Part shown: in pieces, positions 25,655-41,984 of the stretch
Position numbering within the stretch: the first letter of the stretch is position 1
Layout: the number at the start of each line of letters is the position of its first letter
DNA from: Parapedobacter koreensis
Lineage (GTDB): Bacteria; Bacteroidota; Bacteroidia; Sphingobacteriales; Sphingobacteriaceae
DNA: 64,000 bases
Assembly (NCBI RefSeq): GCF_900109365.1
Contig: NZ_FNZR01000001.1
Coordinates: forward strand, 372,001 to 436,000
Direction of reading: 5' to 3'
Position numbers and translations under genes: made by a program
The notes under the pieces: model-generated
What the model saw: only the letters and a program-made list of their open reading frames with translations
Told to the model about the DNA's origin: nothing
The model's database searches: none

Positions 25655-26872
25655 ATGAGTACAAATTATTCCTTGCTCTTCTACTTGAAGAAACCAAAAA
25701 ACTATGCTGTTGGTGCAAAACCCATTTACATGCGTATCACCGTGGCCGGTGAACCCAAGGAAATATCCACTGGCCGTGAGTGTGACCCCGCGCGGTGGAA
25801 CGCCAAGGCTAACCGTGCCAAGGGAACGAAAGAAGAAATCCGTAACCTGAATGCCTACCTCGACACGCTGGAGCGAAAGGTGGCCGATGCCCACTTGCAA
25901 CTCGTAAAGGACGGCGCGGAAATCACCGCCGAATCGCTGAAACTGAAATACCTCGGCAAAGACGTGCAACGGCGGCACCTAATGGAAACGTTCACCGAAC
26001 ACAACCGGAAAATGGAAGCATTGCTGGGCAAGGGCTTCAAGCCAAACACACTGAAAGGCTACAACACTTCGGTTGGGCATCTTACCGCGTACCTCTCGAA
26101 ATGCCTCGGTGAAACGGATATCGACATCCGGCGCATCGACCATGCGTTTATCACGGGTTACGAGTTTTTCCTGCGCTCGGACATGGGATGCAGTGCGGTG
26201 TCGGCAGCCAAGTACATGAAGCACCTGCGCAAAATCGTCAACCTGTGCATCGCCCACCGTTGGATTACGGAAAACCCCTTTGCGTTCTACAAAACGAAAG
26301 CCAAGCCAAGGGAAAAGGAATTTCTCACACCGGATGAACTGGACAGGGTAGCGAAAAAGGAGTTCGGCATACCAAGGCTCGCCCATGTGCGCGACATCTT
26401 CGTGTTCTGCTGCTATACGGGGCTGTCATATGCCGATGTGCGAAAATTGCAAAAGACGGACATCGCCAAGGGCATAGACGGCAGGTTGTGGGTATTGACC
26501 AGCCGGGAGAAAACGGAAACTTCCTCCAACATCCCCCTGCTGCCGCAAGCATTGGAAATCATCGGACGCTATGCGGACTATCCACCATGCGTGGCAAAAG
26601 GGCTGGTGCTTCCCGTGTTGAGCAACCAGAAGATGAACAGCTACCTGAAAGAGATCGCCGACCTGTGCGGCATCGCCAAGACGCTGACATTCCACATGGC
26701 GCGGCACACATTCGCCACCACGGTGACACTGGCCAACAACGTGCCGATAGAAACGGTTTCCAAAATGTTGGGGCATACCAGCATCAAGACCACCCAGCAC
26801 TATGCCAAATTGCTGGATACCCGGATAGGCAACGACATGCTAACTTTACAGCAAAAATTGGCAGGAACTTAA
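25655..26872 (+). CDS. int: tyrosine recombinase, IntDOT-like integrase
   Basis: The 405-residue protein has the Bacteroidota conjugative-transposon integrase plan: an arm-binding N-terminus (YSLLFYLKKPKNYAVGAKPI), a SAM-like core-binding domain (about 105-210) and a catalytic domain. HMARHTFATT gives the His-x-x-Arg, LGHTSIKTTQHYAK the second His and the nucleophilic Tyr. In CCYTGLSYADVRKL the usual first Arg of TGLR is Ser, as described for IntDOT. It reads inward from the left end of the 25.4-38.6 kb element and should drive its integration and excision. Confidence 0.95.
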   Translation: MSTNYSLLFYLKKPKNYAVGAKPIYMRITVAGEPKEISTGRECDPARWNAKANRAKGTKEEIRNLNAYLDTLERKVADAHLQLVKDGAEITAESLKLKYLGKDVQRRHLMETFTEHNRKMEALLGKGFKPNTLKGYNTSVGHLTAYLSKCLGETDIDIRRIDHAFITGYEFFLRSDMGCSAVSAAKYMKHLRKIVNLCIAHRWITENPFAFYKTKAKPREKEFLTPDELDRVAKKEFGIPRLAHVRDIFVFCCYTGLSYADVRKLQKTDIAKGIDGRLWVLTSREKTETSSNIPLLPQALEIIGRYADYPPCVAKGLVLPVLSNQKMNSYLKEIADLCGIAKTLTFHMARHTFATTVTLANNVPIETVSKMLGHTSIKTTQHYAKLLDTRIGNDMLTLQQKLAGT

Positions 26873-26962: not shown

Positions 26963-27847
26963 ATGTCCAAAGCAACACAACCAACAATAGGAACTTACAT
27001 TGACCCGTTAACCGATTTCGCATTTAAAAAGCTCTTTGGAAGCGAGCCGAACAAGGACTTACTGATTGACTTCCTCAATGGCGTGTTCCGTGGGCGGAAA
27101 CACATCGTGGATTTGGTATACAACAAAAACGAGCATCCCGGCGAAACGGTAAACGAAGGGAGTGCCATATTTGACCTAACCTGTACCGGAAACGATGGGG
27201 AGCAATTCATCATAGAAGTACAACGGGGAAAACAGGGCAACTTCAAGCAACGGGCAATCTTCTATACCAGCCGCTTGGTCACCGAGCAAGCCCCCAAAGG
27301 AAAGCGTTCCGAATGGGGATATAATGTGAAAGAAGTGTACCTCATCGCGCTCTTGGAAGATTTTTCCTTGGATGCGGGTAATGAGCAAGAGTTTCTGCAT
27401 GATATTTGCCTAAGTAACAGGGAGACAGGTAAAGTTTTTTACGAGGGGCTGGGGTATATATTCATTGAATTGATTAAATTTGTAAAAACGGAAGCGGAGC
27501 TGGATACCGACCTTGACAAATGGCTCTATGTTTTGAAGAACATGAGTAGCATGGATAAGATTCCGGTATATCTGCGCAAACCGATTTTTGAAAAACTGTT
27601 TAATATTGCTGAATACAGCAATCTGACAAAGGAGGAAAAGACCATGTACGATACAAGTCTGAAACGCAAATGGGACAACAAAGCTGTGTTGGACTATGCA
27701 GTAAATGAGGCGGCAAAGGAAGCAGCAAAGGAGGCCAAACAAGAAGAAAAAATGGAAATCGCACGCGAAATGAAAAAGGACGGCATTTCCGTTGAACAGA
27801 TTGCCAAGTTTACCAAGCTGTCCATCGAGGAAATCGAAAAGCTTTAA
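26963..27847 (+). CDS. Rpn-family PD-(D/E)XK nuclease / putative transposase
   Basis: The 294-residue protein opens with TYIDPLTDFAFKKLFGSEPN, the classic start of this family. The PD-(D/E)XK core has D71 (IFDLTC) and E85-V-Q87 (FIIEVQRG). The C-terminus is charged (EAAKEAKQEEKMEIAREMKK) and ends in the same helical tail as the 5778-6662 paralogue. It lies between the integrase and the mob genes. These nucleases stimulate recombination in E. coli; here it may aid defence or mobility. A strong terminator follows. Confidence 0.87.
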   Translation: MSKATQPTIGTYIDPLTDFAFKKLFGSEPNKDLLIDFLNGVFRGRKHIVDLVYNKNEHPGETVNEGSAIFDLTCTGNDGEQFIIEVQRGKQGNFKQRAIFYTSRLVTEQAPKGKRSEWGYNVKEVYLIALLEDFSLDAGNEQEFLHDICLSNRETGKVFYEGLGYIFIELIKFVKTEAELDTDLDKWLYVLKNMSSMDKIPVYLRKPIFEKLFNIAEYSNLTKEEKTMYDTSLKRKWDNKAVLDYAVNEAAKEAAKEAKQEEKMEIAREMKKDGISVEQIAKFTKLSIEEIEKL

Positions 27848-28096: not shown

Positions 28097-29080
28097 TCAC
28101 CGCCTGACACCCCGTGACTGCGCTTTCTTTTTCCGCTTGCGCCGCCTTTCCTCTTCCTCAATGGGGTTTTGCTGGCTGCCCTCATGGATGGGTTCAAGCA
28201 GCATCCCCAGCAGTTCGGCGGCACCGCCCACCGTGGTGGCCAGCATTTCGCCCACGCTTTCGAACATGCCTTGGCTCACTTCGAGTGCCAGTTCCATTGC
28301 CAATGGCTGACCCTGCGGATGCCGACCCGCCAATTCCGTGAGCGTGTGCATCTGTGCCTTTTGCTGTGCCGTGCCGTTCTTCATCGTATTGGCATATTGC
28401 AGGCTGTCTTCCAGGTTTCGCTCGAAATCGAACAGTTCATCGAACAGGGTTTCGCCCGACTGTTTGAATGCCGTGCGGTCGAACTGCCCCAGCTTCTGCG
28501 AATGGGCTTTGTTCCGGCCACGTGACGTATTCTGCGGGCTTAGCTTGATTTTATTGGTGATGTCCTTGCGGCTCACGATTATCTGGACGTGCATCTGCCG
28601 CCCCTCCTTGCGTTCCCCTTTTCTCTTTTGCCCACTTTTCACTTCCCTGTCGTTGTGGCCGTAATAGCGGTGGTTTTCCAGCTTGCCGAACCAAAGCAAA
28701 TCTTTGTGGCTTTCGATGCCGGGGCGTTTGAAGTTACGGGCGTATTCGTCCATCACCCTCATGGCAAATTCCTTTAACTTTTCCCTTGCCCCGTCCTCGC
28801 CGTATTTGGACACGAGGTGCGCCAGTTCCTTTTGGCTGGGGCTGACGTTGATGAGGAAGAATTTGCTGTCGTCCCTGCCCAGCTTGGCCACGTTGCGGTC
28901 GATGCCCGTCCGCACCTCGTGGGGTTTGATGTCGTTGGCCGTTCCATTGAACCAACGCTCCGGCTTGACCTCCATCCCATTTTCCGGCTTCATCCGGTTT
29001 TCCTTTTCTAGGTAGTGTACCAGCGCACCGCTGCTGCCCTTGTTGTCGCCCGTTTCCGATTTGGTGATGTTGATGTACAT
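28097..29080 (-). CDS. btgB: BtgB-like relaxase (DUF5712 type)
   Basis: The 327-residue protein starts MYINITKSETGDNKGSSGAL, the hallmark of the Bacteroides BtgB/DUF5712 mobilisation proteins. It has HYLEKENRM near residue 27 and RQMHVQIIVSRKD with a His before the C-terminal part. The end is basic (EEERRRKRKKKAQSRGVRR). It is the last gene of the xis-like, winged-helix, btgA, btgB operon. It is unrelated to the relaxase at 19911-21209, so the window has two mobilisation systems. Confidence 0.82.
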   Translation of the reverse strand: MYINITKSETGDNKGSSGALVHYLEKENRMKPENGMEVKPERWFNGTANDIKPHEVRTGIDRNVAKLGRDDSKFFLINVSPSQKELAHLVSKYGEDGAREKLKEFAMRVMDEYARNFKRPGIESHKDLLWFGKLENHRYYGHNDREVKSGQKRKGERKEGRQMHVQIIVSRKDITNKIKLSPQNTSRGRNKAHSQKLGQFDRTAFKQSGETLFDELFDFERNLEDSLQYANTMKNGTAQQKAQMHTLTELAGRHPQGQPLAMELALEVSQGMFESVGEMLATTVGGAAELLGMLLEPIHEGSQQNPIEEEERRRKRKKKAQSRGVRR

Positions 29081-29088
29081 CGCTTTCT

Positions 29089-29643
29089 TTACAGGTTGTC
29101 CAACGATTGCCTTGCACGCCCAGCCAGTTCTTCTTTTTTGGCCGCCGATACAGGCCAGCCGAGGGCTTCCCTTTGGGTGATGTAATAGTCCAGTACCTGC
29201 CGGAACCTGGACTTCAATGTTTCCCTTTCCCGCATGTTGCCAAGTATCTTTTTCAGCGTGCCGTCCACCAGTTTCAGGTAACCGATGGTTTCCCTGCCCA
29301 TGATGGTTGCCTCCGACTGCCCTTTGCCGATGCTTTTCAAAAGCGGGCTTTGCATCTTGGCGATGGCCATCAGTTCCTCCATCGCCGAATACATCGGCAC
29401 CAGCATGTCACCCTCCTGTTTGCGGATGAACGAGAGGATGCGGCTGATGCCGCTTGCCAACTCCTTTTTCAGCACTTCATCGTTCAGGTCGGCGGGGTCT
29501 TTTTTGCTCTTGTAGAAATAATCCACCATCTGCATGACCACCTCCCGCTTGGTGCGGCCAAGTTTCCGCGCAAGCAACGTGAGCCGCTCGTCCACCGCTT
29601 CGGGGAAACGGACGGATTTCGTGTTCTCGTCCTGCCTAACCAT
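29089..29643 (-). CDS. btgA: BtgA-like mobilisation protein
   Basis: The 184-residue protein starts with a ribbon-helix-helix-like segment (TKSVRFPEAVDERLTLLARK, then KREVVMQMVDYFYKS). A long helical part follows, with KLVDGTLKKILGNMRERETL. This matches the BtgA family of Bacteroides transfer factors, which binds oriT with BtgB. It overlaps the winged-helix gene by 8 bp and ends 8 bp before btgB. Confidence 0.82.
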   Translation of the reverse strand: MVRQDENTKSVRFPEAVDERLTLLARKLGRTKREVVMQMVDYFYKSKKDPADLNDEVLKKELASGISRILSFIRKQEGDMLVPMYSAMEELMAIAKMQSPLLKSIGKGQSEATIMGRETIGYLKLVDGTLKKILGNMRERETLKSRFRQVLDYYITQREALGWPVSAAKKEELAGRARQSLDNL

Positions 29644-29959
29644 TTATCCCGCCCTCCCCGTGGATGATGAACCTGAACCTGCTGCCCTTGGCCGGATGCC
29701 ATGAGGGGCGGTACTCCAAGTAGCCATAGGCCACCAGTTCCGACAGGCATTTGTGGTAGGTGGCGATGGAGCGTATCCGCGAGAAGCGCATCAGCTTCCT
29801 GCGGCTGGCGTGGAAATGGCCATGCGGGTTGTCGCAATCGTGGTGATAGAACAATGCCGCCACTAACCCGATGTGCGTGGGCAGTAAACGCCTATCATCG
29901 CCAATCCGCTCAAAGAACGCGCTGAACGCGTGCTTGGGCAATTCCATTCGTTCAGCCAT
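29636..29959 (-). CDS. winged-helix-like protein of the mobilisation operon
   Basis: The 107-residue basic protein has PTHIGLVAALFYHHDCDNP, then RRKLMRFSRIRSIATYHKCL and LVAYGYLEYRPSWHPAKGS. This is a winged helix-turn-helix pattern as in replication or partition accessory proteins. It overlaps both neighbours by 8 bp, so translation is coupled. Such proteins are common between xis-like and btgA genes in Bacteroidota mobilizable elements. Confidence 0.72.
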   Translation of the reverse strand: MAERMELPKHAFSAFFERIGDDRRLLPTHIGLVAALFYHHDCDNPHGHFHASRRKLMRFSRIRSIATYHKCLSELVAYGYLEYRPSWHPAKGSRFRFIIHGEGGING

Positions 29960-30227
29960 TGCCGTTACCTCCCTCCATCATTTTCCTGATGTCCTCCCTG
30001 CGGTAGTACATGCTGCCGCCCACTTTGCGGTAAGGCAACGTGCCGTTGACACGGAGGTTCTGCAATGTTCCGGGCGATATGCCAAGCAGTCTACGCACCT
30101 CTGCGCTTTTCAGCCATTCCCGGCCAAGATTGTCTTTTTCCTTGCTCCCGATGATTTGTTTGAACTCCTCCAGCATTTCCCGCTTGAACTGCCGGAGGTC
30201 TTCCCGTGTGACGATGTCTATTTCCAT
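29952..30227 (-). CDS. xis: excisionase-like MerR/AlpA HTH protein
   Basis: The ATG at 30227 (MEIDIVTREDLRQFKREMLE) gives 91 residues. The C-terminal half is the excisionase-type HTH found in Bacteroidota elements (WLKSAEVRRLLGISPGTLQN, then LPYRKVGGSMYYRREDI). The N-terminal half is a charged helix. It is the first gene of the mobilisation operon, reading away from the hairpin array. It is expected to bind DNA for excision or to regulate transfer. Confidence 0.82.
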   Translation of the reverse strand: MEIDIVTREDLRQFKREMLEEFKQIIGSKEKDNLGREWLKSAEVRRLLGISPGTLQNLRVNGTLPYRKVGGSMYYRREDIRKMMEGGNGNG

Positions 30228-30255
30228 ATCTCTATCATTATGTTTCCATATCCAT

Positions 30256-30605
30256 ATATCCCGATAGCGGGATATTGATTTGCGCCGTTTACACAGCATG
30301 TGGTATACCGCCAAGTATACCGAAACCTTATGCTGGGGCTGTGCCAGCGTATTGGAGTATCCCCGGAGGATACCCGAAACCCCCATGGCGATAGCGTGGG
30401 GGCAAGCAAGTAGGGCTATGCCCAACTTCCGCTTGCTCCATTCCCATCGGGGAATGGCAATTTGGCGGAGCGTGCGAACAGCACGGTTTGGCGCTGCGGC
30501 CAAACAGGGTGATATCCGGTGTTTCCATCGGGCGGCACCCGCTCCGTTGGGACAAAGTTGGGGGATATGACAGGGATATGGATGACCAACCGGAGCGGCT
30601 TGGTC
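30256..30605. repeat. array of about ten perfect short hairpins
   Basis: The perfect inverted repeats are ATATCCCG/CGGGATAT (30256-30275), GGTATAC/GTATACC (30302-30321), GCTGG/CCAGC (30332-30348), GTATCC/GGATAC (30357-30373), CCCCCA/TGGGGG (30380-30402), GGGC/GCCC (30413-30423), CCATTCCC/GGGAATGG (30438-30457), CGTGC/GCACG (30471-30485), GTTTGG/CCAAAC (30486-30505) and GACCAA/TTGGTC (30584-30605). The region is non-coding and lies upstream of the xis-like gene. Origin of transfer or replication, or a structured RNA, are the main options. Confidence 0.75.
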
Positions 30606-30632
30606 ATGTTCGGGGATTGAACGGGTAGACGA

Positions 30633-31379
30633 TTAGGCTTGGTCTACGGGGACGATGCGGAACAACTTCCTGCCATCCGGCACCTGCGAACCCTTTATCG
30701 GGGTTTCGTCCTTGCCCACGAAATAATTGCGTGCCGTATCCAATGGGATTTCCTTGCCGCCGTGGTTGAAGTATTTCGCTATTAGCTTGTAATACGGGCT
30801 ATGATGGTCGCTTTTGAGCAGATTCCTCCCGCTTGGTAGTTCCGCTTCGCGCAGTTGCTGGATGAGGTCGATCAGCGTGGGCAGGTAGCCGTCCTCCACG
30901 TACACTTTCTGTGAAATCCCATATTTCGTATGCGCTTTCAACTGTTCTTCCAAATCCAGTATACGGGCTTGGAGTTCGGCTATCTTTCCGTCTTTTTCTT
31001 TCAGCAGCACGTCGTTAGGCCGGATGTTCCATTTATCGCGTGTGCCGAGGTATTGCTGGAATTCGGTAAGTTTCTCAATGTTTAACAAATGCCGGGGATG
31101 CTCGGATGAGAACGGGTCTTTCCGCTCGAAATGTTCAATCCGTTTCTGCACGATGTACCACACATGGGAAAGGAAATCTTTTTCGGAACCCTGCCCTGTG
31201 GACAGGAAATGATTCAGGTGGTAGGTGTAATAGTCCACAAATTCGGTTTTGTCCAACCCATATATTTTGAGCAAAAAATGGTTGTTGCCATACCCCCTCT
31301 TCAAACCAAGTATGTTGCCAACATCAAACGGATGTGGGGAAAAATCGAAGCGCTTTCTGCTTTTGAAATATTTGACCAT
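30633..31379 (-). CDS. hypothetical protein with central coiled coil
   Basis: The 248-residue basic protein (MVKYFKSRKRFDFSPHPFDV) has a coiled coil near residues 125-150 (LKEKDGKIAELQARILDLEE) and a C-terminal domain with KYFNHGGKEIPLDTARNYFV. No known family. It is the last gene of the 34119-30633 group, 114 bp after the HEPN gene, and borders the hairpin array. DNA binding or partition is one possibility. Confidence 0.62.
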   Translation of the reverse strand: MVKYFKSRKRFDFSPHPFDVGNILGLKRGYGNNHFLLKIYGLDKTEFVDYYTYHLNHFLSTGQGSEKDFLSHVWYIVQKRIEHFERKDPFSSEHPRHLLNIEKLTEFQQYLGTRDKWNIRPNDVLLKEKDGKIAELQARILDLEEQLKAHTKYGISQKVYVEDGYLPTLIDLIQQLREAELPSGRNLLKSDHHSPYYKLIAKYFNHGGKEIPLDTARNYFVGKDETPIKGSQVPDGRKLFRIVPVDQA

Positions 31380-31493: not shown

Positions 31494-32312
31494 TCAATTC
31501 GTTACCGTATCGAGTGCAGCCCCAAACGCTTCAAGCATATCCCCGCAAGCCTCTTCCACCATTTCCTGTATGGTCTGTGACTTGTCTACCAAGTACAGCA
31601 ATTGTCTTTCGGTTATATAATAACCGTTTTCGTATCGTACGGACAAATAGGCGCTGTCCAGCAACTCCATAATTGTCATGTCGTTTTCGTCATTCCTGTC
31701 GAAAACCAATTTTAGCTGCGGCAGGTATGCCAACGCAATTTGATGGTGGTTACGGATGGAATGTGATAGCTTTTCCTTACCAAAAAGGACGATTTCCACC
31801 ATACGGTAGCACAATTCAAAAACCTGATGCAACATAAACGCGCAAAGCTGGTAATTGCCTTTATCCAAATAAAACTGCGCTCCATTGTTGAAAGCCTTTA
31901 TTTTCTGCTTTTCCATTTCGAGGGCTTCATTTGCCCGTTTGAATACCCTTTCGGGCGATAGCTTGCTACTTAGGGCTACATAATTTGCTTTGGAATTTAT
32001 GTAGAGCAGGTTGTCGGGCTGGCAACGGAAAAAGAAAGCTATCCCGCCCTTTCGTATACTATGCCGTACTTCATTTGCATAGTAAAGTTTGTGCCTGAAA
32101 TGCGAATACATGCTCATTACCGTACCGACCAACGGCTTGGCCTCGGTAATGAATTGTTTGTTCGTGTGTGGGAGAAGAATGATAAATTCCTGATGGCAGA
32201 TACCCTGAAATTCATACCGCGAAAAATAGATTTGGTCTACGAGAATGGTATTGACCAGCCGCTCGGTAATCACGGTTAACTGCTGGAATGTTTTCGTGTC
32301 GGGGCAAAGCAT
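31494..32312 (-). CDS. HEPN-domain protein with nucleotidyltransferase-like N-terminus
   Basis: The 272-residue protein has a C-terminal HEPN-type helical bundle (YQLCAFMLHQVFELCYRMVE, then SIRNHHQIALAYLP) after a region of about 130 residues resembling degenerate minimal nucleotidyltransferases (FIILLPHTNKQFITEAKPL). HEPN-MNT pairs are toxin-antitoxin or defence units; here both seem fused. It is the fourth gene of a tight operon, 6 bp after the preceding one. Function in the element is unknown. Confidence 0.62.
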   Translation of the reverse strand: MLCPDTKTFQQLTVITERLVNTILVDQIYFSRYEFQGICHQEFIILLPHTNKQFITEAKPLVGTVMSMYSHFRHKLYYANEVRHSIRKGGIAFFFRCQPDNLLYINSKANYVALSSKLSPERVFKRANEALEMEKQKIKAFNNGAQFYLDKGNYQLCAFMLHQVFELCYRMVEIVLFGKEKLSHSIRNHHQIALAYLPQLKLVFDRNDENDMTIMELLDSAYLSVRYENGYYITERQLLYLVDKSQTIQEMVEEACGDMLEAFGAALDTVTN

Positions 32313-34782: not shown

Positions 34783-36807
34783 ATGATAGAAACTAAGGTT
34801 ATCATTTCCATTCCCGAAGGGAAATTACGGGATTATATTGATGGAACTATCCGAATTGATACCGCAGAAGAATACGTAAGACAAACTGTTGAAAAAAGGC
34901 TGATAAACGAGCATAAGTATTCAAAGGAACAAATTAAGATTGAGTATGCTGTTCAAATGGGTTCTGGAAAAAAAAGAGCTGACATCGTTATCTTCCCAGA
35001 AGGTGCCACAGACGAACAAAAGAAAAATCAACACAATATATATATTGTCATTGAATGTAAAAAGGAGTCGGTAAAACCGACCGATAAACAGAACGGAACG
35101 GAACAGCTTAAATCGTATATGGCTGCTTGTGGCAATTGTGAGTGGGGAATGTGGACGAACGGGCTTCACAAAACAGTCTACAGAAAAGTAAAAGACGATA
35201 AAAACCATACTATTTTTGAAGAATATAATGATATACCTTCGGCAGATGGAACAACTGACGAGCAGGAGCGACCAAATAGGAATACGCTTATAAAAGCGTA
35301 CGAAGACAATCTTCTTTTTACGTTCCGAACTTGTCACAATATAATCTATGTGAATGAGGGTCTACAAAAACAACCTGCCTTTTTTGAGTTCCTCAAAATA
35401 ATTTTTTGCAAAATTCACGATGAACGAAACTTGCTTGAGCCAGTTGAGTTTTACACCACGTCCAAAGAAAGAAACTATAAAGACGGACAAGCCAGTGTTT
35501 ACAAACGAATCTCAAATATTTTTGAAGAAGTAAAGAAGCGACACGGACAAATTTTCGATAAAAACGACGAAATAAAACTGTTGCCACGTACAGTAACTTA
35601 CTTGGTAGCTGAACTTCAAAAATATGCATTGTTGACTACTGATATTGATATCAAGGGCAAGGCCTATGAAGAACTTGTCGGCTCAAATCTAAGGGGTGAC
35701 AGAGGAGAGTTTTTCACACCGAGGAACGTGATGAAAATGGCTGTGGCAATGATTAATCCAAAGGAAACCGAACGCGTTTTGGACAGCAGTTGCGGCACGG
35801 GCGGGTTTGTTGTGACCGCCATGAACGTCGTAATTAATAAGATTACGAAAAAACTTGAAGCTCAATATGGTGAAAAGGAAGGATGGAGTGCAGACGTTCG
35901 CTCGCTGTTCAATCAAAAGATATCTGAAATTGCTTCCGAGAACTACTTTGGGTTTGACATCAACCCAGACCTTGTCAAGGCCACCAAAATGAATATGGTG
36001 ATGAATAACGATGGTAGCGGCAACATTTTGCAACTCAACTCCCTTTTACCACCGCAAGAATGGCCCGAAGAGACCAAGAGGAAGTTGGCAAAAGCCTTGA
36101 GAATTTCTATCAACGATATTCGCAATCATAGGAATTTAGGGCATTTTGACGTGATTGTAACCAATCCTCCGTTCGGTTCCAAAATTCCAGTCAAAGATCA
36201 ACAAATACTTGAGCAATTTGACCTTGCATATATTTGGAACAAGGACGAAAACGGCAATTGGTACAAGACTGCCAGATTGCAGTCGAGTGTTCCACCGGAA
36301 CAACTTTTTATCGAACGCATTATACAGCTCTTAAAGGGAGGCGGTAGGACGGCGATTGTTCTTCCTGATTCTATCCTTGGCGCACCTGGTCTTGAATACA
36401 TCCGACATTGGCTGATTAAGAAAACGAAAATCCTAGCCAGTGTAGACTTACACGCTGATGCCTTCCAACCGCGCAACGGAACCCAATGCTCCATTCTGTT
36501 TCTCCAAAAGAAGACTCAAGCGGAGATTGACGAGGAAGAAAAAACAAGGGAGATTATTGATTACGACATTTTCATGACCATGATTGACCAAATTGGCCAT
36601 GATAAGCGTGGAGGTAAAATTTTTAAGAGAGATGAACAAGGAAATATCATCATGCTTGAAGTGGAGGAAATAGTTCGAGAAAAAGATGTAAACGGTGATT
36701 TGGTTGCGCGAAAAGAAGTAACGCAAGAAAAAATTGTGAACGACCAAACTGTCCATGTTGCAGACATTTTTGCAAAATGGAAAACTAAACAAGGTATAGT
36801 ATGGTAG
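34783..36807 (+). CDS. fused restriction nuclease and N6-adenine methyltransferase (BcgI-like RM subunit)
   Basis: The 674-residue protein begins with an HsdR-N-type PD-(D/E)XK domain (D67 in KKRADIVIF, E91-C-K93 in YIVIECKKE). A helical HsdM N-terminal region and a gamma-class methylase follow: motif I LDSSCGTGGF near 333, motif IV NPPFG near 461. No helicase/translocase exists, unlike type I HsdR. A separate specificity subunit follows with a 7-bp overlap. This is the layout of type IIB systems such as BcgI, where one chain cuts and methylates. Confidence 0.85.
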   Translation: MIETKVIISIPEGKLRDYIDGTIRIDTAEEYVRQTVEKRLINEHKYSKEQIKIEYAVQMGSGKKRADIVIFPEGATDEQKKNQHNIYIVIECKKESVKPTDKQNGTEQLKSYMAACGNCEWGMWTNGLHKTVYRKVKDDKNHTIFEEYNDIPSADGTTDEQERPNRNTLIKAYEDNLLFTFRTCHNIIYVNEGLQKQPAFFEFLKIIFCKIHDERNLLEPVEFYTTSKERNYKDGQASVYKRISNIFEEVKKRHGQIFDKNDEIKLLPRTVTYLVAELQKYALLTTDIDIKGKAYEELVGSNLRGDRGEFFTPRNVMKMAVAMINPKETERVLDSSCGTGGFVVTAMNVVINKITKKLEAQYGEKEGWSADVRSLFNQKISEIASENYFGFDINPDLVKATKMNMVMNNDGSGNILQLNSLLPPQEWPEETKRKLAKALRISINDIRNHRNLGHFDVIVTNPPFGSKIPVKDQQILEQFDLAYIWNKDENGNWYKTARLQSSVPPEQLFIERIIQLLKGGGRTAIVLPDSILGAPGLEYIRHWLIKKTKILASVDLHADAFQPRNGTQCSILFLQKKTQAEIDEEEKTREIIDYDIFMTMIDQIGHDKRGGKIFKRDEQGNIIMLEVEEIVREKDVNGDLVARKEVTQEKIVNDQTVHVADIFAKWKTKQGIVW

Positions 36808-38357
36808 AGAACAATTTGGCATACAAGTTCCAAGAGGTCGAAAAGGAAATAGACTATACATATCTACCTGACCCGCTTAAGTATACATCGGTTTCTCTTT
36901 CGGATGTACTAAATAACCGACTAAGATTAGAAGCAAATGCTTTTAATTTAGAAGCTAAAGTCGCCAACGAGAAAGTCTTAGCCAACAGATACGGGACGGT
37001 GAAACTCTGGTCGGAAAATGGTTTGGTCGAATCTGCATTTCATAGACCTCGATTTAAACGCATCTATGTTGACCACAAAGAAATTCCATTTTTTCAGCCA
37101 TCGTCGATCGCCGAAATTTATCCCAAACCATCAAGATACATCTCTGCCAAGACTGAAACGGACTTGGAAAGTTTAAAGGTCAAAAAGGGCATGCTCTTGA
37201 TGACGGTATCGGGCACTATAGGGAAGGTTGCTATAGTGGGCAGAAAACTCGACGATCAAATTTTCAGCCACGATCTGTTGAGACTAAACGGCAAGGGGAA
37301 GCACGACACGGGATATATTTATGCCTACTTCTTGACCGAAACAGGCCAATATATCCTACAATCTAATAATTATGGAGCAGTTATCAAACATATCGAACCA
37401 GATCATTTAAAAAGTGTTATAATTCCTAATGCGCCGGAACACCTAAAAAAAGAAATACATGAACTGGTAATCCAATCTTATGATTTACGGGACCAATCCA
37501 ACGAATTGATTGACAAAGCCGAAGAGATTCTTTACGAGGAATTGCAACTAAAACCAATAGAGGAGCTTAAAGAAGTTTTTTTTGACAATTCCGTTGAGGT
37601 GAGAAACTATAATACTCGATTAAGCGAACTGGGATTAAGATTAGACAGTTCCTATCATTTGCCTCGTAAAAGGTTAGCCAAAAAAGCATTAACAGCCAAT
37701 TCATTAAAAAATGTCAAAATCGGCGACAAAAGTATTTCTCAAACTATCTATACAGGCAATAGATTCAAGAGGGTATATGTGGATAAAAGCTACGGAGCGC
37801 CGTATCTAACCGGGAAACACATCATGGAATTGAATCCGGGCGGTTTTGACAAAAAGTATCTTTCTATCGACCAGCATGCCGCACAAATCAAAGAACAACT
37901 TTTAATTGAACATAACTCCATTCTGGTCACGTGCTCTGGTTCTATCGGCAAAGTTGTTTTAGTTCCAAAGCATTGGGAAAATTGGGTTGGAACTCACGAT
38001 CTAATTAGGTTAATTCCAAAAGACAATGATATTGCAGGCTACTTATTCTGTGTTCTGAATTCAGAGTATGGCCAGCTTATTCTAAAATCTTTAGTTTACG
38101 GTGCTGTCGTTGATCATATTGAAGCTTTCCATGTCGCAGATATTGAAATCCCCATTCTTAAAAATCAATCGAAGCAAAATGAGATTAATAATTTGGTCCT
38201 AACAGCAAATGAATTAAGGCACCAGGCTTTTTTAAAAGAACAGGAGGCGGTAAGGAAAATGGAAAATGTTATTAATTCAACCACGAACAGCCATAGTTCT
38301 ATGGCGGCAGAAGCCGCGCAAGGATACAAAAGATATAATGGTATCAGCAATATATGA
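36801..38357 (+). CDS. HsdS-like specificity subunit with two target-recognition domains
   Basis: The 518-residue protein has two similar halves. Each contains RFKR-I/V-YVD, S-G-T/S-IGKVA/V, S/THDLLRL or THDLIRL, and YGAV-I/V near the end, followed by a helical spacer (LVIQSYDLRDQSNELIDKAE and LVLTANELRHQAFLKEQEAV). This is a classic HsdS with a bipartite target. It overlaps the methylase-nuclease by 7 bp. The target sequence cannot be predicted. Confidence 0.88.
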   Translation: MVENNLAYKFQEVEKEIDYTYLPDPLKYTSVSLSDVLNNRLRLEANAFNLEAKVANEKVLANRYGTVKLWSENGLVESAFHRPRFKRIYVDHKEIPFFQPSSIAEIYPKPSRYISAKTETDLESLKVKKGMLLMTVSGTIGKVAIVGRKLDDQIFSHDLLRLNGKGKHDTGYIYAYFLTETGQYILQSNNYGAVIKHIEPDHLKSVIIPNAPEHLKKEIHELVIQSYDLRDQSNELIDKAEEILYEELQLKPIEELKEVFFDNSVEVRNYNTRLSELGLRLDSSYHLPRKRLAKKALTANSLKNVKIGDKSISQTIYTGNRFKRVYVDKSYGAPYLTGKHIMELNPGGFDKKYLSIDQHAAQIKEQLLIEHNSILVTCSGSIGKVVLVPKHWENWVGTHDLIRLIPKDNDIAGYLFCVLNSEYGQLILKSLVYGAVVDHIEAFHVADIEIPILKNQSKQNEINNLVLTANELRHQAFLKEQEAVRKMENVINSTTNSHSSMAAEAAQGYKRYNGISNI

Positions 38358-39044: not shown

Positions 39045-41984
39045 ATGGAGCAACACGGTAATTCAAACAACGTAACAGGGACGGAAGGTCATTTCAAAAA
39101 CGGGTCAAGCCTGACATGCCATATGAATAGGGAAAATTTGAGCATTACAAAAACAGCTTCAAAGCTGGGCAACATGGCTATGATCGCCATTATAGTACTA
39201 TTTATTGCAAACACTGCTCATGCTCAAGTGGGGATTGAGCAGCAAGCAGACCAGCAAAGTATAAAAACTATTTATCCTACGAAAGATTGGGTTATATCCG
39301 ATTTTGTCGTAACCGATCCAGAATTTGGCGCAAAAGCCGAACCAGGGTTTGACAACCGATCGGCTTTCCAGGCTGCTATTGATGCCGCATACAACAATGG
39401 CGGTGGTGTAGTGTATGTACCAACGGGTAATTATGAGTTCCGCAGCACGCAAACTGCCACCAGGAACGTCAGGGTGCGTCAGGGTGCTGAACAAGTAATG
39501 AAAGATTTTAATTACCAATATGTGCTGAATATCCCATCGAGTGTACAGCTCCGTGGCGACTGGGCGGATCCTGAATTAAACAAAGGGAAAGTGCTCGGAA
39601 CCATTCTTGAAGTGCGCGTTGGCAAAAACGCGCCCAATTATAACGGAACTGTTGAAAGTTGGTGGAACGACTCGCAGGCTGGCAACGCCCTCCGTACTAC
39701 CTATACCAGTATAGCCGACAGGTTTATAGATATGAATTCGGGAACCGGCGTGACGAACCTGTCAATTTGGTATCCTGAACAGGATATCAACGACGTAAAA
39801 CCCTATCCATGGACATTATTTCAGCCGGATGGCGACTGTGTGACGATTGAAAACGTCACGCTTGTAAACTCTTACAACGGTTTCTATTCCGCGCCCAGCG
39901 AACTGCATTATGTTTTAAACAGCTACATAACCGCCCTCAATACAGGGATCGAAGTTCATGTATGCACGGACATCGGACGTATCGAGCATGTCAAAATAGA
40001 CCCGAAGTACTGGGCAAATTCAGGGCTTCCTGGTTCACCCTCCCTTGCGAAGGTTGCAGGGTACACGAAAGCAAACGGAACTGGATTCAATATGCACCGC
40101 TCAGATTGGGAATATGTGTCTAATCTGTATGTATCCGATTACAAGACAGGCATGTGGGTCGGTAGAGAACCCGGCTACTCCGATACCCCAAATGCGCAGT
40201 TTTACGAAATTCATATCAAAAATTGCGAAACCGGCATATATGTCCAAGCCGTCAACCCATATGGCTTGCTTATTTCCAACTCCACATTCGGAACTGAAAA
40301 AGATGGCAAGGCCGTGTATTTCGATAACGATTTCAAAACTTCTGTCCAATTCAACGGTGTAGACTTCACCGGACCTGTCGTCAGCGACGGCAGCGATGGG
40401 GTTATATCCTTTGAAAGCTGTACGTTTAGCAACGACAGCGAATACGCGCTTAAAGTCAACAATGGCAATGTACTGCTCACCCAAAGCGAATTTAAAAAAC
40501 CTGCCGGCCACGTGTTTCTGGGCTCGGACGTGAATACGCTCAAATCAGTGAACTCCGGCTACAGTGGCAAATTGGAAATCAAAAATGACAGCAAATCGGC
40601 CAAAGTTGAGATCAATAATAGCAAGGAATATCTGTTTGATCCGATCCCTAAAAATGTAGTAACAGATATTAAAGTACACCCGAAACCGGCTTCCAACAAC
40701 GTGTTGAAAGTTGATCTGCCGAGAGCAACCGGTTTTAACGATGACCAACCGACAGCAGATGTATCGGCTCAGTTGCAAAAGGCACTTAATGAAGTTAAGG
40801 CTCTCGGCGGCGGTACACTGTATCTGCCGGGAGGAAGATATTTAGTGAATAATCCCATCAAAATTCCTTCGGGCGTTGAACTGCGGGGAACATGGGATGT
40901 ACAGCACCATACACAAAGCGGCGGTGTAGGTATATTTACAACGTATACAGGCGGCGCTACCGGAGAAAAGGGCCCTTCGCTGATACAACTCGAGGCCAGT
41001 GCGGGTATCAGCGGATTAACCATCTCGCAGCTTAATATAGCCTCAGATGGTTATAGCGCTGAGAATCCCAGACCGACCCCGTTCTTGATACAAGGGCAAG
41101 GTCCAGATGTATATATTGTTAACGTGACCGTAGGAGGTGGCGATAAAGGAATAGACCTCGCCTCATACAACACGAGCAGGCATTATGTTGACTATTTTGC
41201 CGGCGTACTCGCAAGAGCGGGCATTTGGGTCGGCGGAGGTGCTGAAGGCGGGTTTATCCGAAATATGCAGCTCAATCCGCATTACGGATCACGGCTTCCA
41301 CAAGGAGGACAGGGATATCCGAAGATTTCTCTGACACGTTTCGTACAATCAAATTGCAGCGCGCTTAAATTCGCCGACATTAAAAATCAGACAATTTTCA
41401 ACAATTTCGTTTACGGGTCATTCTACGGCATACATTTCCTGAAAGATGCAATAACCGGCAGGAATCCTGGAGAAATGACAGTTATAGGCCACGGTTCAGA
41501 CGGATGCTCGTATTCTTTATTTGTGGAAGACGCCGACAAAAACACCAAATTAATCGCGATCAACTCCGAATTGGTTAATACGCGAACAGCAGAGCCTGTC
41601 CGATCATACGTTCTTATGGGCGGCGAAGCTAACACCAGTAAAGTTCATCCTGATGCTCAACTTATCCTATATAACAGTGCATTTTGGGGTAGCCCTACCA
41701 TAGGGGCTATCATCAATAGCGGTACAGTACGTTTTCAACAGGCAAACTTCCAACGGTCCGGTGCCCCCGCCATAGACAATAGGGGCGGAAAAACGCATGT
41801 GTACTCTTCTTACTTCGCACAAAGAATGCCAGAGGAAGCCAACGGGGATAACGTGCATGCGAAACTACACACGACCAACGTCTCAACAGAACTCACCAAT
41901 AACTATTACATCTCTGGGTTTAGGGAAAATAACACGAAATCAGGCGAGATTTACGGATCTGATATTGTTTCCGATAAGAAATGA
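39045..41984 (+). CDS. exported protein with two pectate-lyase-3-type beta-helix domains
   Basis: The 979-residue protein has a signal segment (MAMIAIIVLFIANTAHAQ) preceded by an unusual polar extension, so a start at 39123 (MNRENLS) or 39174 is possible. Two domains each open with a pectate-lyase-3 signature: AFQAAIDAAYNNGGGVVYVP (residues about 108-127) and LQKALNEVKALGGGTLYLPG near 585. Right-handed beta-helix coils follow. Tandem helices occur in GH55 glucanases and related glycan enzymes. Periplasmic or secreted polysaccharide cleavage is likely; the substrate is unknown. Confidence 0.78.
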   Translation: MEQHGNSNNVTGTEGHFKNGSSLTCHMNRENLSITKTASKLGNMAMIAIIVLFIANTAHAQVGIEQQADQQSIKTIYPTKDWVISDFVVTDPEFGAKAEPGFDNRSAFQAAIDAAYNNGGGVVYVPTGNYEFRSTQTATRNVRVRQGAEQVMKDFNYQYVLNIPSSVQLRGDWADPELNKGKVLGTILEVRVGKNAPNYNGTVESWWNDSQAGNALRTTYTSIADRFIDMNSGTGVTNLSIWYPEQDINDVKPYPWTLFQPDGDCVTIENVTLVNSYNGFYSAPSELHYVLNSYITALNTGIEVHVCTDIGRIEHVKIDPKYWANSGLPGSPSLAKVAGYTKANGTGFNMHRSDWEYVSNLYVSDYKTGMWVGREPGYSDTPNAQFYEIHIKNCETGIYVQAVNPYGLLISNSTFGTEKDGKAVYFDNDFKTSVQFNGVDFTGPVVSDGSDGVISFESCTFSNDSEYALKVNNGNVLLTQSEFKKPAGHVFLGSDVNTLKSVNSGYSGKLEIKNDSKSAKVEINNSKEYLFDPIPKNVVTDIKVHPKPASNNVLKVDLPRATGFNDDQPTADVSAQLQKALNEVKALGGGTLYLPGGRYLVNNPIKIPSGVELRGTWDVQHHTQSGGVGIFTTYTGGATGEKGPSLIQLEASAGISGLTISQLNIASDGYSAENPRPTPFLIQGQGPDVYIVNVTVGGGDKGIDLASYNTSRHYVDYFAGVLARAGIWVGGGAEGGFIRNMQLNPHYGSRLPQGGQGYPKISLTRFVQSNCSALKFADIKNQTIFNNFVYGSFYGIHFLKDAITGRNPGEMTVIGHGSDGCSYSLFVEDADKNTKLIAINSELVNTRTAEPVRSYVLMGGEANTSKVHPDAQLILYNSAFWGSPTIGAIINSGTVRFQQANFQRSGAPAIDNRGGKTHVYSSYFAQRMPEEANGDNVHAKLHTTNVSTELTNNYYISGFRENNTKSGEIYGSDIVSDKK

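Follow-up and report, generated by a model that had tools for sequence, protein, structure and literature searches.

A proposed transfer origin beside the BtgA-MobB pair of an integrated element in Parapedobacter koreensis

The locus and its hairpin array

The window analysed here, a stretch of 64,000 nucleotides from Parapedobacter koreensis, carries what appears to be an integrated element, in which orf248, an array of hairpins, xis, orf107, btgA and mobB follow one another on the minus strand, while the tyrosine integrase (25655..26872) lies on the plus strand. The orf248 gene (30633..31379) encodes a conserved protein, for which neither a Pfam family nor a significant PDB fold match was found. 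The product of xis (29952..30227) is a small, excisionase-like protein with a helix-turn-helix domain (HTH_17), and family searches with orf107 (29636..29959) found none. The last two genes encode a mobilization protein of the BfmA/BtgA family (btgA, 29089..29643, NF041200) and a MobB family relaxase (mobB, 28097..29080, NF041495, DUF5712). Three further neighbours may be mentioned: a gene for a nuclease of the Rpn/PDDEXK_2 family (26963-27847), which lies between the integrase gene and those for mobilization, a HEPN-domain gene upstream of orf248 (31494-32312), and type I restriction-modification genes (34783-38357), in which a methylase whose N-terminal part is HSDR_N-like is followed by a specificity subunit.

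The array was placed at 30256-30605 in a preliminary description of the sequence, and hairpin counting together with shuffling bears out this location. By counting non-overlapping hairpins with perfect arms and loops of 3 to 12, and using 300 dinucleotide shuffles as the null, it was found that the stretch holds 8 hairpins with arms of at least 5 (2.9 +/- 1.3 in shuffles, none of the 300 reaching 8) and 6 with arms of at least 6 (0.85 +/- 0.87, again with no shuffle having as many). With arms of at least 4 the count rises to 11, in comparison with 7.7 +/- 1.7, and 15 of the 300 shuffles reach that number. The original figure of ten hairpins thus hinges on how nested repeats and 4-bp arms are counted. 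Among 350-nt stretches taken every 50 nt across the window, six hairpins with arms of at least 6 were reached only by those overlapping the array; the second-richest stretch, at 39601, holds five. Folding of both strands of 30230-30632 gave z values of -5.1 for plus-strand RNA, -5.0 for minus-strand RNA and -4.3 for DNA, and in each of the three cases none of 100 shuffles folded to an energy as low. The possibility that the hairpins are both unconserved in related elements and random by shuffling was examined, and the array withstood it.

Read along the minus strand, the region opens with element A (30544..30626), a conserved segment at the junction of orf248 and xis with GTTC..GAAC and ATGACCAA..TTGGTCAT repeats. 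Two more hairpins follow between elements A and B (30486-30505 and 30471-30485), the former having a mismatch in three close relatives (L001, L002 and L003, alignment A1). Core B (30356..30440, minus strand) is the conserved segment that extends from H1 to H3. H1 (30402..30436, minus strand) is the core inverted repeat, GCAAGC-GG-AAGT..ACTT-GCTTGC, and directly 5' of it stands H0 (30438..30457), which reads CCATTCCC-CGAT-GGGAATGG on the minus strand. Between H1 and H3 lies the variable H2 (30380..30402, minus strand), which was dropped as a candidate conserved hairpin, with just 27 of 82 loci reaching p <= 0.05. H3 (30357..30373) is an inverted repeat of the form GTATCC-N5-GGATAC, and H5 (30302..30321) one of the form GGTATAC-N6-GTATACC; the short hairpin H4 (GCTGG/CCAGC, 30332..30348), which emerged from the hairpin count, separates the two. 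The array ends by the start of xis with the hairpin ATATCCCG-ATAG-CGGGATAT (30256..30275), nearly conserved in Parapedobacter and in an Olivibacter locus (L037).

A conserved core that accompanies the MobB relaxase

Relatives of the element were collected through a search with the xis protein, and the best 80 of 556 confirmed places were taken as loci. Similarity over the whole stretch is confined to four Parapedobacter loci (89-93%), and farther relatives keep two separate pieces, core B in 29 of the 80 loci and element A in 15. Core B, always on the xis strand (29/29), may precede xis, separate orf107 from btgA, or stand past orf248, 1-2 kb upstream of xis. Of the 30 loci in which MobB was matched it is present in 27, as against 2 of the 50 without such a match, namely L008, where part of btgA is present, and L047. 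The three loci in which it is absent beside MobB are L014, whose contig starts within orf248, L025 and L035. A covariance model later added core B in L030, L052 and L064, in which it lies no more than 230 nt from a contig end. Element A, on the other hand, lies between orf248 and xis in all 15 of its loci, including four that have no BtgA or MobB match (L020, L022, L050 and L055), and for these reasons it is not regarded as part of the transfer module; an operator or promoter region is proposed for it. The array does not behave as a single unit, since core B tracks the BtgA-MobB pair and element A the orf248-xis junction.

Two observations on individual relatives can be added. In the Olivibacter locus (L037, 4921-5028), where neither core B nor BtgA nor MobB is present, similarity to the window is limited to the part between the middle of H5 (30307) and xis, which places a module border inside H5. 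Two metagenomic bins labelled Thermoanaerobacteraceae and Neobacillus (L014 and L036) carry Sphingobacterium-like elements and are probably wrongly binned.

The covariance model of core B, named R1, comprises 82 positions and 21 pairs. Applied to 201 genomes of the family, it found 80 places in 54 genomes, one place being counted on both strands, while the MobB model NF041495 matched in 50 of the same 201. Core B and MobB occur together in 44 genomes, core B only in 10 and MobB only in 6, giving a Fisher p of 5e-28 when the genomes are treated as independent. In 58 of the 80 places core B lies 595-2205 bp upstream of MobB, on the same strand in every one of the 58; the remaining 22 have no MobB within 6 kb. 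Seen from the relaxase, 58 of 72 places have core B and 14 do not. A sample of 198 genomes of the class gave three R1 matches, all in the window's family and none outside it, whereas a MobB-like gene (E <= 1e-10) is present in 11 genomes of this sample, 8 of them outside that family; the reach of the model thus ends at the family. The genome of the window itself holds a single copy of core B, and a plain DNA similarity search with the region found no match in plasmids or phages.

Some of the cores without a nearby MobB have other neighbours; of thirteen such regions, some genes of eight were scanned. One core (L124:5094-5175) adjoins a DncV-like nucleotidyltransferase and a SAVED-domain gene, a CBASS-like arrangement; another (L128:4987-5068) adjoins an AAA ATPase gene, and a third (L134:2210-2292) two tyrosine integrases and a DnaG-like primase. 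It is possible that these three are origins served in trans. In a further copy (L131:5016-5632, the same place as L102) the core gives way to integrase-like sequence on the opposite strand, as if recombination had cut or joined an origin.

That the neighbouring protein is a relaxase is indicated by several lines of evidence. MobB scores 263 bits against NF041495, whose cut-off is 200, and in NCBIfam naming MobB is a relaxase and its neighbour BfmA/BtgA. A structure predicted for MobB, with a mean pLDDT of 73.3, was compared with known folds, and the first 28 rows are conjugative relaxases, with Z of 8.9-11.6 and rmsd of 3.0-4.8 over 144-184 residues; among them row 23 (4ht4) is one that we take to be a relaxase, its title not saying so. 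The next row falls to Z 6.5. A Foldseek search with the same model gave no significant match (best E 0.096) and a PDB sequence search with MobB gave none. By the comparison of folds, the predicted structure resembles the HUH relaxase fold.

Transfer origins and rolling-circle origins share the use of hairpins and HUH enzymes, and on this ground the array might be a single-strand or rolling-circle replication origin of the excised element. The core, however, tracks the BtgA-MobB pair, and a scan of ten neighbouring proteins matched no replication gene. The rolling-circle suggestion of the preliminary description accordingly gained no support, and we consider such an origin extremely unlikely.

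Compensatory changes, which the preliminary description had proposed to look for, are seen in related elements at 12 of the 21 core pairs. They were counted in 53 distinct sequences from 54 hand-chosen sources, in an alignment that was fitted to R1 and so favours pairing. On this basis, 96.9% of cells pair in comparison with 92.3% when shuffled; 12 pairs changed on both sides contrast with 2.5 in shuffles, and 38 cells with 3.0. Sliding the pair partners abolishes the co-variation signal. The inverted repeat of H1 is conserved and co-varying, its 5' arm AGCAAGCGGAAG is conserved, and 50 of 51 scorable cells have a sense-strand G-T pair, for which the other strand would give an A-C mismatch. 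The arms of H0 vary widely among loci yet pair in about half of them: perfect arms of at least 6 are found in 23 of 51 loci, with 17 distinct sequences, and p <= 0.05 in 49 of 82. H0 is kept as a hairpin despite its changed letters, which suits a role in single-stranded DNA.

Co-varying pairs, the sense-strand G-T pair of H1 and the low folding energy of both strands are also what a structured non-coding RNA would offer, either as a leader of the xis-mob operon or as a separate RNA such as the sgm-sRNA of SGI1, which provides a precedent beside an oriT (PMC9299015). Against an action as RNA stand the lack of any Rfam match, whether over the window at the gathering score or within 30200-30660 at E <= 5, and the differing place and order of the modules among relatives, which are found apart or rearranged. 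Moreover, the outer stem of the global fold (30245-30253/30574-30582) loses one pair in two close relatives (L003 and L004). The RNA suggestion is for these reasons held to be very unlikely, and the paired repeats considered below fit DNA better.

Paired inverted repeats and a residue of BtgA

The repeats of the array had been described as not being copies of each other, a statement that needs an exception for H3 and H5, two sites that resemble each other and lie roughly five turns of the helix from one another. In 77 of 80 loci the centre of H3 lies 71 or 72 nt from where the core starts. Partial core matches of fewer than 60 model positions were dropped from this spacing set, and those of fewer than 40 from the set used for H3, H5 and BtgA. 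The search for H5 allowed its centre to lie about 41 to 63 nt away from the centre of H3, and at least six of seven pairs were found in 45 of 51 distinct loci, as against 7% of shuffles, and in 66 of 86 in the larger set. Among 49 loci with an H5 of at least five pairs, the distance between centres is 53.5 in 31 and 52.5 in 14; in the window it is 53.5 bp.

The start of BtgA follows a pattern like KSVRFP, whose fourth letter, in the N-terminal strand, is Arg or Lys. This sequence pattern and the family name suggest that BtgA is a ribbon-helix-helix-like protein, and a BtgA relative is annotated as CopG family. From 86 distinct extended loci, 73 could be compared: 62 through the BtgA-start pattern, in which the tested residue had to be R, K or Q, ten read later, and L119; those left out have contig ends, lack the relaxase, or gave no BtgA. 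H3 holds GTA/TAC in all 57 loci with Arg and in none of the 16 with Lys, and H5 in 56 of the 57 and again in none of the 16, so that for H5 the rule fits 72 of 73 loci, with L108 as the exception. The rule was formulated after the fact and covers all ten later loci. An earlier version, in which the second base of the half-site was T for Arg and A or C for Lys, was abandoned: 7 of the ten later loci obey it, among them L142 with GAATTC and Lys, whereas L158 and L159 break it and L160 (with G) falls outside it.

Since btgA lies close to its oriT and the two are inherited together within lineages, the number of loci overstates the evidence, and changes were therefore counted on a tree. On a BtgA tree built without the strand residues, the Arg/Lys state changes six times with 62 rows and five times with 73, and in the 62-row tree at least three changes are forced by well-supported branches. 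All three of the independent pairs that fall on supported branches follow the GTA rule (sign test p 0.25), a number of pairs with which the association cannot reach significance. These tree-based counts supersede a permutation test of H3-H5 coupling, which ignores relatedness. Taken together, the sequence comparisons suggest that the Arg/Lys residue of BtgA is probably a specificity switch. A likeness of TATCCTCCGG in H3 to the IncP nic motif was also considered, and was dropped since the arms of H3 change freely and track BtgA.

The helical-turn spacing of H3 and H5 and their link to a residue of a DNA-binding protein fit a function as DNA better than one as RNA. They could in principle be explained if H3 and H5 were only autoregulatory operators of a btgA (or xis) promoter and transfer started elsewhere. 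On plasmid RA3, MobC acts on its own promoter as a repressor via a palindrome (PMC4175270), and in Mucilaginibacter H5 lies shortly before btgA. Yet the distance from H3 to H1 is fixed, and in L006, L008, L009 and L036 core B and H5 lie 1-2 kb upstream of xis, past orf248, away from the btgA promoter. A purely autoregulatory role is accordingly considered very unlikely.

A proposed transfer origin and its counterparts

The position beside MobB, the co-variation of the core, the fold predicted for MobB, the likeness to plasmids set out below, the spacing of H3 and H5 and the association of residue and bases together argue that 30302-30457, on the minus strand, is very probably the oriT of an integrated mobilizable element, adjacent to its BtgA-MobB pair. 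Of the earlier suggestion of a transfer origin or multi-hairpin recognition site, it is this middle part of 156 bp that is well supported, and not the rest of the array. In the proposed mechanism, BtgA would bind the inverted repeats H3 and H5, its putative operators, on one face of the DNA helix and help to recruit the relaxase. MobB would recognise H1 on the mob-sense (minus) strand, nick at or just 3' of it and stay on the 5' end, which would then enter the recipient via the secretion system of a helper element.

The copies without a relaxase, some of which lie beside integrases or defence genes, and the Arg/Lys-GTA code allow a further and decidedly tentative reading, in which the Sphingobacteriaceae would have origins with such a code that has switched several times, and the relaxase-less copies would be mimics through which resident BtgA-MobB elements move other islands, as in staphylococci but with a separate evolutionary origin. 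If the code is true, the choice of elements for transfer could be read from the origin. Among the CC-licensed PMC papers listed in literature searches, none was seen to describe such an origin in Sphingobacteriaceae. BtgA/MobB modules move genes in Bacteroidota; with the short covariance model, origins of this kind can be located in genomes of the family that have not been annotated, and the Arg/Lys-GTA association predicts which accessory protein pairs with which origin.

Among the closest counterparts are the BtgA/BtgB plasmids of Bacteroides (pBFTM10 type), which have the same protein pair as the window and of which several records are typed as relaxase class MOBB by MOB-suite. Binding of BtgA to the oriT of pBFTM10 has been reported (PMC10865816). 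These plasmids carry a GCAAGAGGAAA..TTTCCTCTTGCCCTACGG repeat, 100-200 bp before btgA, that resembles H1, and two Spirosoma plasmids have a looser GAGCGAGACGGAA..TTCTTCTCGCCCTACGGGG repeat before btgA. They differ in that inspection by eye of the upstream stretches in the Bacteroides plasmids showed nothing like the H3/H5 pair, and in that their MobB is only about 33-37% identical to that of the window. When R1 was run on 12 plasmid loci, four (L092, L086, L089 and L090) matched at E 0.0013-0.018 on the expected strand and in the expected place, one (L083) matched at E 1.6 and seven had no match at E <= 5; because the core scores as well against its own reverse strand, these E-values carry little weight by themselves.

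Related arrangements are known from other systems. On the F plasmid, several binding sites for TraM and for the ribbon-helix-helix protein TraY lie next to nic (PMC12117103), but the relaxase is of another class, the host IHF is used and the sites are different. MobC of the IncU plasmid RA3 is likewise a ribbon-helix-helix protein, encoded before the relaxase, that binds a palindrome near oriT (PMC4175270); it differs in having one operator within the promoter and a MobP relaxase. For SGI1, whose mobilization needs the sgm-sRNA (PMC9299015), a non-coding region beside the oriT also matters, and there it acts as RNA, of which no sign was seen here.

The arrangement of H3, H5 and BtgA may work like the SmpO/oss system in the oriT of the staphylococcal pWBG749 family, an analogy by which membership is not claimed. 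That system belongs to another phylum and has another relaxase, and in the window each site is an inverted repeat, to which BtgA would bind. SmpO is a ribbon-helix-helix protein with two sites about 50 bp apart that contain GNNNNC, and the substitution F7K switches its specificity (PMC8136818). The spacing of ossA and ossB is close to the roughly 53 bp between H3 and H5, GNNNNC fits 69 of 73 left half-sites of H3, and, just as one N-terminal residue sets the specificity of SmpO, the Arg/Lys residue of BtgA would, by association, do the same for the paired repeats of the proposed origin.
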